Shown here piece by piece: positions 3,058 through 35,778 of a DNA stretch of 44,605 bases (position 1 is its first letter; the number at the start of each line of letters is the position of its first letter). Source of the stretch: an uncultured Nitrospiraceae bacterium. GTDB taxonomy: Bacteria; Nitrospirota; Thermodesulfovibrionia; Thermodesulfovibrionales; SM23-35. The stretch is from the NCBI GenBank assembly GCA_937138415.1, contig CAKZPA010000033.1:1-44605 (forward strand), in the 5' to 3' direction. A program made the translations under genes and the position numbers. The notes under the pieces were generated by a model, which worked only from the letters and a program-made list of their open reading frames with translations, was not told the DNA's origin and made no database searches.

Positions 3058-3258
3058 CTAACTACTCGCTTTCTTTGCGGCTTCAAGGAGCCTCTTCAAT
3101 CGTTTCGATTCAAGGTATATTCGTACCAGACTCCGCGATAACTCTTCATTGCCCGAAGCTTTAGCCGTCGCCGCCCACTCCATGCAGCTCTTCCCGTGCT
3201 CCTCATTGTGCCGAATCCAGTACTCGATCATGCTCCCGATTTTCGCTGTCTCTTCCAC
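3058..3258 (-). CDS. 66-aa helical HN-motif protein, copy 1
   Basis: A 66-residue, mostly helical soluble protein with no membrane segment. The GTG start is preceded by AAGGAAGGGG. It shares 42 of 66 residues with the product of 4155-4355. Conserved features are MEE.AKIG, YW..HNEE, M.WAA, GNEELSR.LVR.YLESKR and a terminal KASS. This copy has H17 and H21 in HNEEH plus C25, which could bind metal. It lies between a leader RNA (3496-3600) and TonB receptor 1, so it is probably the first gene of that operon. I recall similar small helical proteins near metal-uptake genes but cannot name the family with certainty. A metallochaperone or accessory role is inference. Confidence 0.75.
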   Translation of the reverse strand: MEETAKIGSMIEYWIRHNEEHGKSCMEWAATAKASGNEELSRSLVRIYLESKRLKRLLEAAKKASS

Positions 3259-3495: not shown

Positions 3496-3600
3496 AAAAA
3501 AACCACGACTGCCATTACCTTCTTGGTAGTAATAGCCTTCGTGGCTTGATACTTCAGATTACTGCTTCAGCTATGGATGCGCCGAACTTCGTATCCGGAC
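3496..3600 (-). ncRNA. Candidate leader RNA / attenuator, copy A
   Basis: Predicted to be transcribed from the promoter at 3607-3636. Hairpin I (3582-3598) begins about three bases after the expected +1: CCGGA / UUCGG stem, 7-nt loop UACGAAG. About 35 nt later comes hairpin II: outer stem CCACGA / UCGUGG, an AGGC internal loop, an inner stem around an AAGA-type loop, then seven U (3496-3502). The same plan recurs at 9158-9257 and 8948-9045, and hairpin II also at 3686-3774. The U tract makes hairpin II an intrinsic terminator, so the element could be a ligand-controlled attenuator for the 66-aa protein/TonB/FmdE genes. I do not recognise it as a known riboswitch class. The structure was drawn by eye. 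Confidence 0.6.
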
Positions 3601-3606
3601 ATACTA

Positions 3607-3636
3607 AGATTAGCGGAATCGGCAAAAAGAAGTCAA
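3607..3636 (-). promoter_or_regulatory. Sigma-70-type promoter for leader RNA copy A
   Basis: Minus-strand TTGACT (3631-3636), 18-bp spacer, TAATCT (3607-3612). The expected transcription start is near 3600, directly at the 5' edge of hairpin I of the leader. The promoter at 9264-9293 has the same geometry relative to its own leader, which supports both. Confidence 0.65.
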
Positions 3637-3685: not shown

Positions 3686-3774
3686 ATAAAAAGGGAAGCC
3701 ACGAATACCTCCCAAGTCTTCTGACCCAGTTTCAGCCTTCGTGGCTTGTTTCTTATAACTTATGGCTTCCCTTT
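3686..3774 (-). terminator. Terminator after the His-rich gene, related to the leader hairpins (copy B)
   Basis: Perfect 12-bp outer repeat AAAGGGAAGCCA (3763-3774) / TGGCTTCCCTTT (3690-3701), with further T residues. Nested and overlapping is the island-specific hairpin GCCACGA...TCGTGGC (3697-3745) with an AGAA-loop inner stem. The two pairings share GCCA/TGGC, so only one can form fully. It begins in the stop codon of the His-rich gene. No upstream hairpin I is evident in this copy. Confidence 0.65.
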
Positions 3775-3934
3775 AGTGGCAGCACGTGTGCTCGTGCTTG
3801 TGATGGTCATCATCATGCGTGTGCTCGTGCGTATGCTTCTGGGGCAGATGCTTGTGTTCATGCCCATCGTGAGTATGCGTCAGCTCCTTGTGCTCATGCT
3901 CGTGCTCATGCTTATCCTTGATATGGCAGCACAT
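3773..3934 (-). CDS. 53-aa histidine-rich metal-binding protein
   Basis: A small ORF, MCCHIKDKHEHEHEH... ending HEHTCCH: 53 residues with 19 His and 4 Cys, symmetrical CCH motifs at both ends, and repeated HEH/HTH blocks. The ATG at 3934-3932 has an upstream AGAGGTGATAAGGA ribosome-binding site, and an extended -10 promoter lies at 3961-3969. There is no signal peptide or membrane segment, so it is probably cytoplasmic. His-rich low-complexity proteins of this kind buffer or carry Ni, Zn or Co (compare the His-rich tails of HypB, SlyD or Hpn). The specific metal is not determinable. It sits between the two 66-aa paralogues, in the middle of the metal-uptake island. The opposite strand also has open frames here, but they are shadows of the HxH repeats. 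Confidence 0.85.
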   Translation of the reverse strand: MCCHIKDKHEHEHEHKELTHTHDGHEHKHLPQKHTHEHTHDDDHHKHEHTCCH

Positions 3935-4154: not shown

Positions 4155-4355
4155 CTAAGAACTCGCTTTCGGAGCCGATTGGAAAAGTCTGTTCATTCGT
4201 TTTGATTCGAGGTAGAGTCGGACGAGAATCCTCGATAACTCTTCATTGCCGGCGTTCGCAGCTTTCGCTGCCCATTTCATATAATCTTCTGCAAGCTCTT
4301 CATTGTGCTCCTTCCAGTACTTAATTACGTTACCGATCTTCGCGATCTCTTCCAT
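4155..4355 (-). CDS. 66-aa helical HN-motif protein, copy 2
   Basis: Paralogue of 3058-3258, identical in length (66 aa) and 64% identical by eye. I chose the ATG at 4355-4353 (GGAGG six bases upstream) because it matches the start of copy 1; the frame is open further upstream to 4424. The HNEE motif is kept but the second His and the Cys of copy 1 are replaced (HNEEL, DYM), so any metal site would be altered. It follows the terminator of the binding-protein operon and precedes the His-rich gene by about 220 bases. Function unknown. Confidence 0.75.
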   Translation of the reverse strand: MEEIAKIGNVIKYWKEHNEELAEDYMKWAAKAANAGNEELSRILVRLYLESKRMNRLFQSAPKASS

Positions 4356-4529: not shown

Positions 4530-6101
4530 TCATTGCAGAATGCGCCATTCTGCAAGGTCATGGAGCATACCTGCAGGTGATGGAACGATTCCCTTGATCC
4601 TCCAATGGGTGACGAAGATGAGATCGGCATTGTAGAGGAACACACACGGCTGGTCTTCGGCAAGTAGTTCGTGAACTTTCGCGTATACCTCTCCCCTCTC
4701 CGCTCTGTCGACCGTGCGCCTCCCTTTTTCGAGGAGCGCATCGAGAGCGGGATTTCTGTAGGACATAATGTTCCACTGACCCTCCTTTGTCATGCTCGAA
4801 TGCCAGAGGTCGTAGATGTCCGGGTCCCAAAGATATGCACGCGACAGCACAATCGCTTCGAACTGATGCTTGGCGACCACTTCATGCCGGAATGTCTGCC
4901 ATTCGAGCGTGCGTACATCGGTTCGTATTCCCACTGCTTTGAGGTTGCTCTGGATGATCTGCGCGGTCTTGATATTGTCTCTGTTTTCGTAATTCGTGAG
5001 AATCGTAAAAGACATGGCGTGATCACCTTTCCTGTAAATCCCGTCCGTGCCCTTCTTCCACCCTGCGTCTTGGAGCAACTCCTCGGCCTTCGTAGGGTTG
5101 TATTCGAAATCCCGTGCGAGAGCACTTGCATACCACGCCTCAGGCGGATACGGACCGGTTGACTTGCTACCCAATCCCATGAGAACGACATCGATGATCG
5201 CTTTTTTGTCGATCGCGTGACTGATGGCCCGACGAACCCGCACATCCTGGAAACGTTCATCAAGCATGTTGAATCCGAGGAATCCGAGTCTGAAGGACCG
5301 AGCCCGGTGCTCGAGAAAGTGGGTAGCGAGCGTTCCGGATTGCGTCTCGAGTGCGTATTGAGAGGGGGTGAGTTCCATCACATCGACCCCGCCTGCCTTC
5401 AATTCCAGGAGCTGTGTCGAAGCGTCGGGAATGACCCGTATGAAAACATTCTTAATGCCAGGACGCCCACCGTAAAATCTATCGAAAGATTCAAGCCACA
5501 GCTTTTCACCACTCACCCATTGCTTGAGGCGGTATGGACCTGTTCCCACCGGAGCACGGTCGAAAGAAATGTCGCGAACGTCCCTGTTCAGGAAAATATG
5601 CTTCGGGATAATTCCGAACGTCCAGCTGTCGAGGGCTGATCCGTAAGGCTCCGAGTATAAGACAGATACGGAATACGTATCGGTCGCTCTCACCTCTTTC
5701 ACCGGACCGAAGTGACCGCTGTGGTGGGTCGCAGTCCAGGGGGACGTGGCGCTTCGGAAGGTGAATACCACATCGTCGGCAGTCAGTTCGACACCGTCGT
5801 GCCAGAGAATGCCTTTCTTCAGGCGAAAGCGAATCTCTCGTCCGCCGGGCAGGATTCTCCATGATTCCGCGAGATCCGGAACGATATTCATGTCCTTATC
5901 GAACTTCGTAAGGCCTCTGAAAATGAGCCCACTGATCGAATAGGAGATCATATCTGTGAGGAACAGTGGATTGAGGCGTTTCGGTTCCGCAGACACCGCG
6001 ATGGTCACCGTGTCGGAAGGACGCCCCTTTTCGTACCCTCCTTGGCAACCGGCGCATAGAATGATAGCAGCGAGGAGCGCAGTGCAAAGCTTCCTGAACA
6101 T
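4530..6101 (-). CDS. Family 5 extracellular solute-binding lipoprotein (peptide/nickel type)
   Basis: 523-aa periplasmic binding protein of the OppA/DppA/NikA family (SBP_bac_5). A lipoprotein signal covers residues 1-19 with a lipobox ending at Cys19 (ILCAGC). Family features are present: KRLNPLF, DLAESW, GILWHDGVELTADDVVFT and the AISHAIDKKAI region. It begins five bases after the stop of TonB receptor 2 and ends before a terminator, so methyltransferase-receptor-binding protein form one operon. No cognate permease or ATPase genes (OppBCDF type) occur in the window. It may deliver a metallophore, peptide or metal complex to a transporter encoded elsewhere. The assignment to the family is firm; the substrate is inference. 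Confidence 0.92.
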   Translation of the reverse strand: MFRKLCTALLAAIILCAGCQGGYEKGRPSDTVTIAVSAEPKRLNPLFLTDMISYSISGLIFRGLTKFDKDMNIVPDLAESWRILPGGREIRFRLKKGILWHDGVELTADDVVFTFRSATSPWTATHHSGHFGPVKEVRATDTYSVSVLYSEPYGSALDSWTFGIIPKHIFLNRDVRDISFDRAPVGTGPYRLKQWVSGEKLWLESFDRFYGGRPGIKNVFIRVIPDASTQLLELKAGGVDVMELTPSQYALETQSGTLATHFLEHRARSFRLGFLGFNMLDERFQDVRVRRAISHAIDKKAIIDVVLMGLGSKSTGPYPPEAWYASALARDFEYNPTKAEELLQDAGWKKGTDGIYRKGDHAMSFTILTNYENRDNIKTAQIIQSNLKAVGIRTDVRTLEWQTFRHEVVAKHQFEAIVLSRAYLWDPDIYDLWHSSMTKEGQWNIMSYRNPALDALLEKGRRTVDRAERGEVYAKVHELLAEDQPCVFLYNADLIFVTHWRIKGIVPSPAGMLHDLAEWRILQ

Positions 6102-6106
6102 ACGGG

Positions 6107-8197
6107 CTAAAAGACCGCCTTCACACCGAGGCCAGCATTCAGCCCCGCGGCGGGGAAACCGAAGCGCTCCTGATAGTCCCTGTCCAAGAGGTTATGGACA
6201 TAGCCCGTGATCTCGACATTCCTCGTCACCGGATAGGACGCTTCGATGTCGGCCGTCACGAAATCACCCTGCTCTCTCACCCTGAGTTCGGTATTGAAAA
6301 GTGTATTGTCGTTATAGATCACCTTTTGATCGGAGACGAAACGACCGTAGAGGGTTATCTTCTCTTTATTCCTTCCCTTGTACTGGAGGCCGAGATTTAT
6401 CTTGTGCGCAGGGAGGCCGGGTATCTCATCGAAGTCTCTGTTCTCGGGCACAACGAAATTGCTGACGAACGGGTCACCCTCGGTTTGGCTCTTCTGGTAT
6501 GTGTAGTTCGCAAAGATTGAAAAGCCTTTCCCTAACTGCTGCGCTACTTCCATCTCGACCCCGCACAAGGTCGCCTTGTCGATGTTGTACGAGACGAAAT
6601 TGATAAGATCGAACTGGATGTAATTGTCGATGCGATAGTAGTAAGGCGAAATCTCCATGCGCGTTTTCGAGGGAAACTCCGCCTTCCAGCCGCCCTGGAC
6701 CATGATCCCCTCCTCCTTCTCGAATGGGAGATTCGCGGTATTCACCCCCGCATCGGGCGAATAGTGCCAGTAGTGCTCGGGGGGGGTCGGCATCCGCAGG
6801 GCGCTGGCGACGCTCACATAGACCATGCCTGACGTATCGTAACGATACGTTGCCTTGAGTGACGGCGCGAGACCGCGCATCGAGATATCCGCGATCCCTT
6901 CGGCTTTCCCCGCCGGTCCCGCATTGCCGTCATACCACATATATCGCACTCCCGGCGTCAGGATAAACGTATCGGCAAGCGCGATGTCATCCATGACGTA
7001 GATCCCAACGTGCTCCGCGTTCACGTAGTTCCGGTTCCTGAAGGGAGATCTGAAATCGTCAGGGTAATTTTCGTCGCCGTCATCCTTGAATCTCTTATAA
7101 TCTCCGCCGATCGTAATCGTGTGCTTTCCCAAATACGCGGCGTAGTTCGTGTCCGCTCCATACGAGCGGTCGTCGAAGAAACGCTTGTGAAATACCCGAT
7201 TCAGCGATTTCCGCGTGTTGTACGCTTCTCTGTCGCCATGATTCCACCAGTAGTTGACCGTAAGAAGACTGTTGGGGAGTGCTTGCTCATACCCGACAGT
7301 TACGTAGTACTTCTCTTTCTCCCACCAGCTTCCCGGTTCCGGATACGCGCCCATCCCGCCGTACATGAACTCCCCGTCCGAAGCGGGATAGGAATTGTCG
7401 ATCGCCTCTCTATAGGCGGGATCATCGTAATCTTTCGACTGTCGGTTCGGCACGATGAAACCCTTTCGCACGCGAACATACTGGAGATCCCCCGTGATCT
7501 TCGCCTTCCAGGGGAGTTCGTAGCCGAGATCCAGATTGATATTCTTCAGCGAGAAATCGGCGTTCCTCAAATATCCATCGCTTTCGGAGAACCCGCCGCT
7601 CAATGCATATTCGAATGAGCCCGGTTTCCATGCATGGAAGAGGCTCGCGGTATACGTGCCGTAGCTCGCTCCGAGCCCCTGCATCTCGAAGACGCGTCTC
7701 TCAGAAGGTTTCTTCGTGACGAGATTGACGACCCCGCCGAGCGTATTTCCATACCGGGGGTCGCTCACGCCCTTCACGACCTCGATCCGTTCAACGTTAT
7801 TGAGCGGTATCGTCGTCCAGTCGATGAAATAGCCGCCGGCGGTTCCCGACGTGTTCATCGTCCTGCCGTCGATGGTGACGACGATCCGCCGCGACCCGAA
7901 TCCCCGGATCTTGATGGAATCGTCGTCGAGCGCAGCGCCCACTTCCTGCGGTCTCTGAACATCGATGCCCGGTTGGCGCACCAGAGCGGCATCGAGCGTG
8001 GAACCGATTCCCTGGAGCAACAATTCAGGAAAAACGACGGTCATGTTCGGGTTTTTCGTCTCCTTTTGGACGTCGCTTTCCGAAACGATCAGTTCGTCGA
8101 GTTGAAAAATCCTCACCCGTTCCGGCTGGCTCTCAGCGTACGTATAAACCGCCGAGACGATCAGCAGACAAATGCACGTTAACATTCCGACACGCAT
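6107..8197 (-). CDS. TonB-dependent outer-membrane receptor 2
   Basis: 696-aa outer-membrane receptor. A signal peptide covers residues 1-21, a TonB box-like DELIVSES is at 34-41, the plug contains IRGFGSRRIVVTIDGRTMN and GGVVNLVTKKPSERR, and the barrel ends in LNAGLGVKAVF. The ATG at 8197 has GGAGGGGAAGT upstream. It overlaps the 3' end of the methyltransferase gene by 65 bases. It is a paralogue of receptor 1 but the two barrels have diverged, so the pair may take up different forms of a ligand. The leader RNA pair at 8948-9257 precedes this operon. The ligand is unknown; the Zur/Znu neighbourhood favours a transition-metal chelate. Confidence 0.92.
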   Translation of the reverse strand: MRVGMLTCICLLIVSAVYTYAESQPERVRIFQLDELIVSESDVQKETKNPNMTVVFPELLLQGIGSTLDAALVRQPGIDVQRPQEVGAALDDDSIKIRGFGSRRIVVTIDGRTMNTSGTAGGYFIDWTTIPLNNVERIEVVKGVSDPRYGNTLGGVVNLVTKKPSERRVFEMQGLGASYGTYTASLFHAWKPGSFEYALSGGFSESDGYLRNADFSLKNINLDLGYELPWKAKITGDLQYVRVRKGFIVPNRQSKDYDDPAYREAIDNSYPASDGEFMYGGMGAYPEPGSWWEKEKYYVTVGYEQALPNSLLTVNYWWNHGDREAYNTRKSLNRVFHKRFFDDRSYGADTNYAAYLGKHTITIGGDYKRFKDDGDENYPDDFRSPFRNRNYVNAEHVGIYVMDDIALADTFILTPGVRYMWYDGNAGPAGKAEGIADISMRGLAPSLKATYRYDTSGMVYVSVASALRMPTPPEHYWHYSPDAGVNTANLPFEKEEGIMVQGGWKAEFPSKTRMEISPYYYRIDNYIQFDLINFVSYNIDKATLCGVEMEVAQQLGKGFSIFANYTYQKSQTEGDPFVSNFVVPENRDFDEIPGLPAHKINLGLQYKGRNKEKITLYGRFVSDQKVIYNDNTLFNTELRVREQGDFVTADIEASYPVTRNVEITGYVHNLLDRDYQERFGFPAAGLNAGLGVKAVF

Positions 8198-8933
8198 ACT
8201 TCCCCTCCTCCATGATTTCGCTCGAGTTCATACCCTCGCATCTCGACCACCAGTACATGCAGAGATGCGCAATCCCCTTACTCCAGAAATGCCCATCTTC
8301 ATAGGACAACGTCGCGACGATGCCGTGCTCCTCGTACGGTTCCGGAATGCGTTCATGCCTGAAAGACCAGTGTTCGATTGCATCCTCCAGACAGTGATAT
8401 GCGTAGGAGCTGTCGGTGCTCCACTGTTCTTCGAAACGGCGGGTGTACGCGCCGTACCTGTCATCCGGGAAACAGTCGAGAAACTGCTTTTCGGAAACGA
8501 TGAATACGTGGTGCGGTCTCGCGCGAAAGACCTTGTCGAGGGCAGAGGCGAAGCCGCTCTCCGTAAGATGGAGGCTGTTGGATGCGACAATGAGATCGAA
8601 TATCCCCAGCTCGCTCAACGGCACATCTTCCCATGTTCGGGTGTCGATAAGAAGCGACGAAACTCGCCTCCGTGTTCCTTCCTTTTCGAGCAAGGCTCTC
8701 ATGCAGGCAGACGGTTCGAGAGCCGTCACCGTGCACCCCATGGCGGCGAGAGGCAGGGAGAGAACCCCGCTGCCCGCGCCGATATCGAGGACAGCCCAAC
8801 CGGGTCTGACGAAAGCGCCGAGGACCTCGAGTGCTCTCCGATGGTACGCGTTGTGCTCCAGCCACAATTGGTACCATTTCGCGTTCCGATCCCAGTACTC
8901 CGCTGACATTGCCCTTCGTCGCTGTTTTTCCAT
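8133..8933 (-). CDS. Class I SAM-dependent methyltransferase
   Basis: 266-aa methyltransferase from the ATG at 8933-8931 (MEKQRR), which has GGAGGGG a few bases upstream. SAM-binding motif I is VLDIGAGSGVLSLPLA, followed by TALEPSACM, DLIVASNSLHL and a tail unlike housekeeping RNA methyltransferases. The N-terminal YWDRNAKWY resembles the FW..KAKNYP start of the edge methyltransferase at 1-156. It is the first gene of the operon with TonB receptor 2, directly behind the U tract of leader copy C. The last 65 bases overlap the receptor gene, a long overlap that could reflect an extended C-terminus (the receptor ribosome-binding site lies inside it). A role in modifying a metallophore or sensing a corrinoid/metal ligand is speculation. 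Confidence 0.85.
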   Translation of the reverse strand: MEKQRRRAMSAEYWDRNAKWYQLWLEHNAYHRRALEVLGAFVRPGWAVLDIGAGSGVLSLPLAAMGCTVTALEPSACMRALLEKEGTRRRVSSLLIDTRTWEDVPLSELGIFDLIVASNSLHLTESGFASALDKVFRARPHHVFIVSEKQFLDCFPDDRYGAYTRRFEEQWSTDSSYAYHCLEDAIEHWSFRHERIPEPYEEHGIVATLSYEDGHFWSKGIAHLCMYWWSRCEGMNSSEIMEEGKYACRNVNVHLSADRLGGLYVR

Positions 8934-8947
8934 GCACCCCTCCAAAC

Positions 8948-9045
8948 AAAAAAGCCACGAAAGCGATGCCTTCACGGCATATCAGCCTTCGTGGCTTTTG
9001 GATTCTCCGGCGACCCCCCGAATTGTCCGGAACTTCGTATTCCGA
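8948..9045 (-). ncRNA. Candidate leader RNA / attenuator, copy C (second of tandem)
   Basis: Hairpin I at 9026-9045 (UCGGAA / UUCCGA with loop UACGAAG, identical to the loop of copy A). Hairpin II at 8948-8998: GCCACGA / UCGUGGC outer stem, inner stem AUGCC / GGCAU around GUGAA, then six U. The methyltransferase ribosome-binding site GGAGGGG follows the U tract after a few bases. No convincing promoter lies directly upstream, so it is probably read from the promoter at 9264-9293, through copy D, giving a tandem arrangement. Hairpin II also has T residues on the plus strand and could terminate in both directions. Confidence 0.6.
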
Positions 9046-9157: not shown

Positions 9158-9257
9158 AAAAAAATGCCACGAGTACCCACCTTCTGGTGGCCGCCTTCGT
9201 GGCTTCTTGATCCTACGATCGTTTCCCGCTACAAATCCAAAACTTCCTGTTTCGAAC
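9158..9257 (-). ncRNA. Candidate leader RNA / attenuator, copy D (first of tandem)
   Basis: Expected to start at about 9257. Hairpin I (9236-9256) begins immediately: UUCGAAA / UUUUGGA stem, 7-nt loop CAGGAAG. Hairpin II: GCCACGA / UCGUGGC, internal loop, CCACC / GGUGG inner stem with AGAA loop, then seven U (9158-9164). Stem sequences differ from copies A and C while pairing is kept (CGAAA/UUUUG versus CCGGA/UUCGG), which is covariation-like support for a real RNA structure. It lies about 150 bases past the znuB stop and could also serve as the znuB terminator. Confidence 0.62.
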
Positions 9258-9263
9258 AATTCT

Positions 9264-9293
9264 ATGATAGCGAATGGTGCGGAACGATGTCAA
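9264..9293 (-). promoter_or_regulatory. Promoter for the leader D/C - methyltransferase - TonB - SBP operon
   Basis: Minus strand TTGACA (9288-9293), 18-bp spacer, TATCAT (9264-9269), a near-consensus sigma-70 promoter between znuB and leader copy D. The predicted +1 (about 9257) falls at the edge of hairpin I, exactly as at copy A. Confidence 0.7.
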
Positions 9294-27792: not shown

Positions 27793-27927
27793 GATTAACT
27801 CTTTCCGCCGTGTTCGCGTGCTTCCCCGCGGAAACCGTTATCCGGTGAGCCGCCCCGAGGCGACCGTTGAAAAAAATTCATTCCGTATGATATAAAGAAT
27901 TCGGCCTTCACATACTATTGAATCGAC

Positions 27928-28186
27928 GCTGGATGTCAGGGAAGTGGAGTGAGCCTCTACGGTAATTCTCCCGCTGCCCCGCAGCCGTGAAGGGAACGAA
28001 AGCCCAAACAACAGTGACAGGTGAAAAGTGACGAGCGAAGGAAAGGATTCGAAAAACTTCCAACGTGTTCTTTTCATCTTCATCTGTCAGGACAACCACT
28101 GGTGGTCTTAAGACCGCCGGGAAGGCGGGCGAGTAGGCGCCTCGGTATCGTTGTTGTGACGCCCTGAGCCGGAAGACCTATCCAGC
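27928..28186 (+). promoter_or_regulatory. Cobalamin riboswitch 1, with an inserted stem
   Basis: P1 pairs GCTGGAT (27928-27934) with ATCCAGC (28180-28186). Conserved pieces in order: CTGCCCCGCAGCCGTGAAGGG, GAACGAAAGCCC, CCACTG, GGGAAGGCG, and the B12 box GAGCCGGAAGACC. An extra stem-loop of about 78 nt is inserted at 28013-28090 (GTGACAG/CTGTCA and GTGAAAAG/CTTTTCAT arms) between GAACGAAAGCCC and CCACTG. It represses downstream expression when adenosylcobalamin binds. It precedes the BtuD-like gene. Confidence 0.9.
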
Positions 28187-28263
28187 CGTGTACGCGCTCC
28201 GTATTCAGAGCGGGTGCCGTTTGGCGCTCTGAAAGCGGGCGTACGTTCCCGAGGGAGGAAAAA

Positions 28264-29096: not shown

Positions 29097-29224
29097 GAGG
29101 GGAATCCCGTGAGATCCGGGAACTGCCCCGCAACTGTGAAGGGAACGAAAACCGAATGCCACTGTCCCACGAAGAGCGGGATGGGAAGGCCGGTGAGTAG
29201 GTCGCCCTGAGTCAGGATACCCTC
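29097..29224 (+). promoter_or_regulatory. Cobalamin riboswitch 2
   Basis: Compact canonical form. P1 GAGGG/CCCTC (29097-29101/29220-29224); then GGAATCCCGTGAGATCCGGG, ACTGCCCCGCAACTGTGAAGG, GAACGAAA, GCCACTG, GGGAAGGC and the B12 box GAGTCAGGATACC. It lies 12 bases past the btuD stop and controls the BtuB-like receptor. Downstream, ATGAC (29225-29229) can pair with GTCAT (29263-29267) next to AGGAGG, a plausible translation-control platform. Confidence 0.93.
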
Positions 29225-35246: not shown

Positions 35247-35362
35247 GTTGGACGTTCCCCGCCCGGCCTAACCCCTTTCCCCCTCTTGCCATAAAGCACG
35301 CTTTTTGTTTATTGTATTCCTAAGATTTCTTGATCACGAGCAAGGAGGTTAACCGTCGAATT

Positions 35363-35541
35363 GCCTACCCTGTTTGTGATAGGGAGAACATGTTGATCCG
35401 GCAAGTTAGATCTTTTGGGAGTCCGCGTAAAGAGTCGGTGTGCAGGCCCGGCTTGGATGCAGGGAAGCCTAAAGTCTCTTTCAGGACACCCACCTATTCT
35501 ATAGGCGGATCTAATTTCTTCCTACACGGCAGGGTGGGTTT
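35363..35541 (+). ncRNA. ssrS: 6S RNA
   Basis: About 179 nt. The terminal stem pairs CCTACCCTG (35364-35372) with CAGGGTGGG (35530-35538), one G-U. The 3' half contains GGGAAGCCTAAAGTCT...GGACACCCACCT, closely matching the E. coli 6S segment GAAGCCTTAAAACT...GACACATTCACCT. 6S RNA binds sigma-70 RNA polymerase in stationary phase. Its position before rny is the same as in deltaproteobacteria. The remaining parts of 35247-35778 hold a possible weak terminator near 35567-35590 and no ORF. Confidence 0.85.
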
Positions 35542-35778
35542 AGTATCCCGGGCAGGGTTATGATATCCATTCCTTTTTGGAGGATTTTACATAGATTACG
35601 ATGTGCTCGCGACCGATGGAGAAAAACCCTTCGTAATTAAGCACCTCCGTCCTCCAAGAATCTTTTTTCATTCATAAGCCCCAGCCCGAACAAAAAAAGA
35701 AAACAACGGGGGAAGCGTACGCTTCTCTCATCAATCCCTCGACCATCGGAGAAGGGAGAGGAAGGGGGTTCACGATAT

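Follow-up and report, generated by a model that had tools for sequence, protein, structure and literature searches.

Conserved RNA hairpins that overlap the 5′ arm of a terminator are known from the LicT/SacY systems, in which the protein-bound hairpin (RAT) has a larger stem interrupted by internal loops. ANTAR proteins (EutV/NasR/AmiR) block termination via dual hexaloop hairpins (PMC3369931), and metal riboswitches such as NiCo/czcD and yybP-ykoY have been described (PMC9294342). NikR is a DNA-binding repressor whose regulons include NikMNQO, NikA-type transporters and TonB receptors. Among genomes that encode NikABCDE, less than half also have NikR, from which NikR-independent regulation has been inferred (Zhang et al. 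2009, PMC2667541).

The leaders reported here were found in a 44,605-nt stretch of DNA from an uncultured Nitrospiraceae bacterium (the whole stretch analysed; hereafter the window) and in other genomes. As in RAT, a conserved hairpin overlaps the terminator 5′ arm, and as in ANTAR targets there are two small hairpins (P1 and P2) with conserved loops, the second forming the 5′ arm of an intrinsic terminator such that binding would block termination; the leader sequence AGCCAYGAAGGCU can be set against the eut consensus AGCAANGRRGCUY. However, ANTAR target loops are hexaloops with A1 and G4 whereas those of the leader are C-G-closed pentaloops (AYGAA/ANGAA), the ANTAR hairpins lie at a fixed short spacing whereas P1 is often missing and its spacing ranges from 5 to 105 nt, and ANTAR systems serve nitrogen use whereas the leader genes serve Ni/Co uptake. 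ANTAR proteins are encoded by 2 of 61 relatives and were found neither in this genome nor in its own family; with the protein absent and the loop different, identity with an ANTAR target RNA was rejected. The NiCo riboswitch (RF02683) is also an RNA leader tied to Ni/Co, but it precedes efflux genes whereas the leader precedes uptake genes. Cobalamin riboswitches (RF00174) likewise stand ahead of TonB/CbiM-type genes, but match the leaders in neither sequence nor structure. NikR shares kinds of targets with the leader, but leader-bearing genomes of Thermodesulfovibrionales lack it.

No Rfam 15 family scores at or above its gathering threshold at the leaders, a permissive search (E≤10) with copies A and B returned chance-level matches only, and the RF02683 covariance model has no match there. 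Nor does RF00174, whose only matches in the window (27914–28199 and 29099–29222, plus strand) flank a block of ABC ATPase and TonB receptor genes and are elements separate from the leaders. Searches of the open-licence PMC literature (by sequence, nickel riboswitch and NikR-less regulation) returned no description of the leader. The original prediction, made from the letters of the window, that no known riboswitch carries this signature agrees with the Rfam searches, and sequence comparison indicates that the leader is an uncatalogued family of leader RNAs, real and broad, and attached to Ni/Co uptake.

Leaders and genes of the window

The minus strand carries copies A (3600–3496), C (9257–9158) and D (9045–8948), in each of which a 5′ hairpin with an ANGAA loop, P1, precedes a terminator hairpin with the 5′ arm AGCCA[C/U]GAAGGC. 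The promoter of leader A (3607–3636, minus strand) has a −35 TTGACT (3636–3631) and a −10 TAATCT (3612–3607) separated by N18, and is predicted to start transcription at ~3600. It is followed on the same strand by P1 (hairpin I; 3582–3598; CCGGAU[ACGAA]GUUCGG), by P2 (3534–3546; AGCC[ACGAA]GGCU), which constitutes the terminator 5′ arm and is predicted to be able to fold by itself while the 3′ arm is unmade, and by the terminator (hairpin II) with its inner hairpin P3 and seven U (3496–3549). Promoter, hairpin I and seven-U terminator are thus present where they had been predicted, and sequence comparison shows the layout TTGAC[A/T]-N17/18-TATNNT repeated 5′ of the relatives. The first gene 3′ of leader A is a 66-aa small ORF (3058–3258), and the TonB-dependent receptor (753–2888) predicted to be controlled by A is followed by a gene for an FmdE-family protein (158–847), all on the minus strand. 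Copy B (3692–3749, minus strand) is a family terminator hairpin that lacks P1 and lies 3′ of a His-rich mini-gene (53-aa ORF, 3773–3934, minus strand; putatively Ni-binding).

Leader C has the same promoter spacing and architecture as A, as anticipated for a second site near 9.2 kb. Its promoter (9264–9293, minus strand) comprises TTGACA (9293–9288), N18 and TATCAT (9269–9264), and is followed by P1 (9235–9257, minus strand; GUUCGAAAC[AGGAA]GUUUUGGAU) and by P2 with the terminator hairpin and U7 (9158–9207, minus strand). Leader D consists of P1 (9027–9045, minus strand; UCGGAAU[ACGAA]GUUCCGG) and P2 with a terminator hairpin and U-tract (8948–8999, minus strand), the terminator being directly 5′ of the Shine-Dalgarno sequence GGAGGGG (8943–8937). 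Because no good promoter of its own is evident in the sequence of D, C and D are read as tandem attenuators in one leader, and the downstream operon looks to be under both. It contains, all on the minus strand, a class I methyltransferase gene (8133–8933, with its true start at ATG 8933), a TonB-dependent receptor gene (6107–8197) and a gene for a NikA/Opp-like substrate-binding protein (SBP_bac_5; 4530–6101). The mechanically called GTG start of the methyltransferase gene (8975, minus strand) falls within leader D. Tandem leaders paired ahead of a single operon were also seen at L113, L119 and L038.

Folding z-scores against dinucleotide shuffles are about −5 for A, D and B and −2.5 for C. 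The compensating changes that had been noted in hairpin I are borne out, with P1 covarying among A, C, D and a further copy, E, G-U pairs included. Six exact copies of the 12-mer AGCCACGAAGGC are present in the 2.1-Mb genome, whereas its reversed control has none. Four of the six lie in the window, one is in coding sequence (contig C44) and one is copy E (C36:119111), which precedes another TonB receptor gene. Copy F (GGCCACGAAGGC, C36:109047) precedes a nickel/cobalt ECF operon of the order porin-DUF4198-CbiM-NikL-CbiQ-CbiO, whose NikL is an equivalog match above cut-off.

Several other elements are located near the leaders. The small ORFs at 3058–3258 and 4155–4353 (minus strand) are paralogous (MEE..IG..IEYW..HNEE..), have no Pfam match and resemble ORFs that carry the motif ...WIEHN... 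and a His-rich tail in the operons of other leaders (L164, L172); they are possibly CooJ-like nickel chaperones. A znuABC set and a Fur-family gene neighbour the leader loci, a selenocysteine tRNA gene (L005, 1772–1869, minus strand) lies near leader E, and 6S RNA (RF00013) is at 35359–35544 (plus strand).

Distribution, gene context and NikR

The survey is limited by its use of metagenome-assembled genomes and by ascertainment on the 5′ arm. Strong enrichment of the exact 12-mer over its control was found in 60 relatives, with neighbours encoding CbiM/NikM, DUF4198, porin, TonB, ExbB/D, TonB receptors, methyltransferase and His-rich proteins. A covariance model (R1) searched across 176 genomes of Thermodesulfovibrionales matched 103 of them at E≤0.01 and 83 at E≤1e-5; one weak match (L120, in genome G142) was rejected as a chance terminator. 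A second model (R2) found matches in 66 of 147 sampled Desulfobacteria genomes (~45%). A genome-wide scan with a sequence pattern, in which genes were ignored, yielded Nitrospirota, Desulfobacterota, Clostridia, Phascolarctobacterium, Spirochaetia and Stahlbacteria among the matches listed, the Clostridia among these including Thermovorax, Fervidicola, Alkalibaculum and Clostridium. Cultured carriers include Desulfosarcina alkanivorans, Thermovorax subterraneus, Desulfoluna and Thermodesulfovibrio.

The leader is located directly 5′ of CbiM/NikM-NikL-CbiQO, DUF4198/porin, TonB/ExbBD, TonB-receptor, NikA-like and methyltransferase genes, in the order general for attenuators (promoter, leader, intrinsic terminator and gene on the same strand). 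Where enough sequence was available downstream (87 model-found sites), Ni/Co-uptake or TonB genes follow on the same strand in 85, compared with 9 of 44 upstream flanks. For the pattern-found sites among the matches listed, reference genes are downstream on the same strand in 52 of 70 and in the upstream flank in 10 of 64; some of the other pattern-found sites, inspected by eye, precede apparent NicO, CobN-like, other methyltransferase or SBP genes. A dispersed or REP-type repeat was rejected, there being few copies per genome and nearly all of them at specific operons. The covariance-model search that had been proposed recovers covarying homologues ahead of TonB and metal genes, as expected for a leader class in front of metal-uptake operons, and the observation from the window is confirmed as real and larger than had been claimed.

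Within the 176 Thermodesulfovibrionales genomes the leader is present in 83 (E≤1e-5) and NikR in 36, with both in none (Fisher p 2e-12, phylogeny ignored). Leader and NikR alternate within three families (f2, f3 and f13), so the exclusion does not reflect one old split. NikR is rare in Desulfobacteria (5 of 147), where the single overlap with the leader is a weak match, and it is present in 4 of 50 leader genomes, mostly of other phyla; the exclusion is therefore a strong tendency and not a law. Because all leader-bearing genomes of the order lack NikR, the leader probably provides the on/off control of nickel uptake in its Thermodesulfovibrionales carriers. Nickel is also the best guess for the metal sensed, given the association with NikL, DUF4198, NikA-like SBP, CooT and His-rich genes and the NikR exclusion; cobalt is possible, although the cobalamin riboswitches of the window are separate elements, and zinc is less likely despite the neighbouring znuABC and Fur-family genes.

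The leader offers a concrete and testable answer to how nickel uptake might be regulated without NikR in Nitrospirota, Desulfobacterota and some Clostridia, and many anaerobes of these groups depend on Ni enzymes (CODH, hydrogenase). It may also serve as a marker by which TonB receptors and ABC transporters that are so far uncharacterised could be annotated as Ni-uptake genes.

P1, P2 and the terminator

A set of 149 non-redundant sites yielded 25 upstream hairpins with stems of 5 bp or longer and an RNRAA pentaloop closed by C/U-G, compared with 1.2±1.1 in dinucleotide shuffles; P1 was found upstream in 23 of the 149 sites, 5–105 nt from P2. The pentaloops are mostly AUGAA, AAGAA and ACGAA, with AGGAA and AUAAA also present, and the second loop base varies freely (A, C, G or U). 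The stems are unrelated in sequence (e.g. GUGCC/GGUGC, UCGCAAC/GUUGCGA, ACAUGGC/GCCGUGU). A gap-free alignment of 19 P1 hairpins, partly picked for pairing, has two-sided changes in 40 cells versus 12.9 when shuffled, and the shuffle enrichment of 25 versus 1.2 is the fairer test. Many leaders outside Nitrospirota have only P2, so the dual-hairpin site is not universal.

In the terminator stem the sole pattern-free position of the 5′ arm (C/U) covaries with its 3′ partner (p=1e-8; C-G 30, U-A 26, U-G 9, C-A 2), and does so in the model-found set too (p=2e-10). Of 148 sites, 136 have an inner hairpin P3, versus 76 shuffled; the P3 loop (AGNA/RUGAA) is conserved only in Nitrospirota. At model-found sites the 5′ arm is near-constant and its 3′ partners are mismatched in up to ~1/3 of sites (opposite 5′-arm A: U 54, C 18, A 4, G 4; opposite 5′-arm G: C 57, U 13, G 9, A 2). 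This is suggestive of constraint on the 5′ arm beyond pairing, and it is not a clean indication because the model had been built from exact 5′ arms.

The 5′ arm GCC[AYGAA]GGC is self-complementary and can form a hairpin, P2, with a loop as in P1, mutually exclusive with the terminator. For RNA truncated ahead of the 3′ arm, folding predicts P2 at 140 of 148 sites, with a mean probability of 0.94; predicted energies are about −5 kcal/mol for P2 and −29 kcal/mol for the terminator. Outside GCC/GGC the P2 pairs do not covary significantly over all sites, and GCC/GGC itself scarcely varies, partly as set by the search pattern. Extension of the P2 stem by flanking bases (UAG/CUA, UUG/CAA) was rejected in a permutation test (z 1.3 overall), the z of ~3 in Nitrospirota alone possibly arising from relatedness. 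P2 thus stands as a supported hypothesis. Many CbiM-type leaders have a predicted start 0–15 nt before P2, and so would contain no upstream aptamer or leader peptide. In many CbiM-type leaders (L051–L057, L068) the U-tract is followed by GCCGCGGGAAAGGGG, which can pair with the 3′ arm CGCGGC; pairing of this arm with GCCGCGG past the U-tract was rejected as a general feature, being found in many CbiM leaders and not generally.

Proposed control of termination

With slightly better than even confidence, we read the leader as a cis-acting 5′ RNA that attenuates transcription of nickel (perhaps nickel/cobalt) uptake genes through a trans-acting factor on the ANGAA loops. Termination would be the default. 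While the 3′ arm is untranscribed P2 would form, and its persistence would decide between readthrough and termination. A trans-acting factor is invoked because the terminator (~−29 kcal/mol) far outweighs P2 (~−5 kcal/mol), and something active must stop termination because uptake genes need expression when the metal is scarce. Under nickel scarcity the putative factor, most likely an RNA-binding protein, would hold P2 (and P1) by their conserved loops, the obvious contact, and polymerase would pass; in nickel-replete cells its release would let the terminator close uptake. A wider proposal, that RNA-based nickel control replacing NikR is widespread in anaerobes and that a nickel-binding protein (CooT or another) reads the ANGAA hairpins and couples nickel to termination, is plausible but falls somewhat short of even likelihood. 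If true, metal sensing via RNA-protein antitermination would be an unusual form of metalloregulation, and the leader genes a new kind of metal-responsive antitermination regulon.

The main rival is direct metal sensing, with the RNA itself binding Ni2+ (or Co2+), the metal-bound form favouring termination and no protein involved. Consistent with a riboswitch are the compact, conserved nature of the RNA and its position ahead of metal-uptake genes in several phyla, the lack of a universal protein partner among those found and the precedent of NiCo/czcD and yybP-ykoY (PMC9294342). However, the many CbiM-type leaders predicted to start 0–15 nt before the terminator have no separate aptamer, P1 is dispensable and the inner loops are conserved only in Nitrospirota. 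Moreover, RNA alone should always terminate because the terminator is ~24 kcal/mol more stable than P2, and a ligand could then act only by blocking termination, which is opposite in sign to what uptake genes need; we regard this alternative as unlikely. That the hairpin does no more than keep basal expression low, as a terminator near the promoter or as a stabilising stem, with regulation elsewhere, is distinctly improbable: the terminator is strong, with its U-tract, and copy B follows a gene end, but this reading leaves aside the 5′-arm constraint beyond pairing, the conserved P1 loops, the regulon-like restriction of genes and the NikR exclusion. A palindrome near the promoter with a regulon-like distribution might also be bound as DNA by a repressor. 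The spacing of the halves differs by tens of bases, though, the U-tract is retained, and P1 and the stem contain G-U pairs and compensatory changes, with P1 stems unrelated in sequence, making a DNA operator very improbable.

The original prediction was that the P1 loop ACGAAG could compete for the terminator 3′ arm, and in A, D and E the loop does equal a segment of the 5′ arm. Complementarity to the 3′ arm is not kept among P1 loops such as AAGAA, AUGAA, AGGAA and AUAAA, whose second base is free; the AGGAA loop of C is unable to pair with its own 3′ arm, and many leaders lack P1, so that this switch has next to no likelihood. The hairpin II counterpart of the second P1 loop base covaries with the 3′ arm, and the better reading, on comparison of the two hairpins, is that the hairpin II 5′ arm may itself be an ANGAA-loop hairpin. 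The prediction was right about a leader RNA class and probably wrong about the loop/3′-arm switch.

CooT (COG1532, labelled ‘predicted RNA-binding’) is a candidate for the factor that would read the loops under the antitermination model. It is encoded in six leader operons from three phyla and in 43 of 50 leader genomes outside the first search set, but it is near-universal in Thermodesulfovibrionales, including NikR genomes without the leader, and was not detected in seven leader-bearing genomes, among them that of Phascolarctobacterium. This small protein binds one Ni per dimer with a Kd of 9 nM, and its function, described as unclear (PMC6006190), may be indicated by the leader. Its co-occurrence with the leader is not specific; CooT was rejected as the specific partner, and we consider it rather improbable as the factor. 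DUF3842 genes also recur beside leaders in several phyla (L123, L126, L127, L144, L158, L161 and L163), and a nickel-linked function is possible for DUF3842 from this context.
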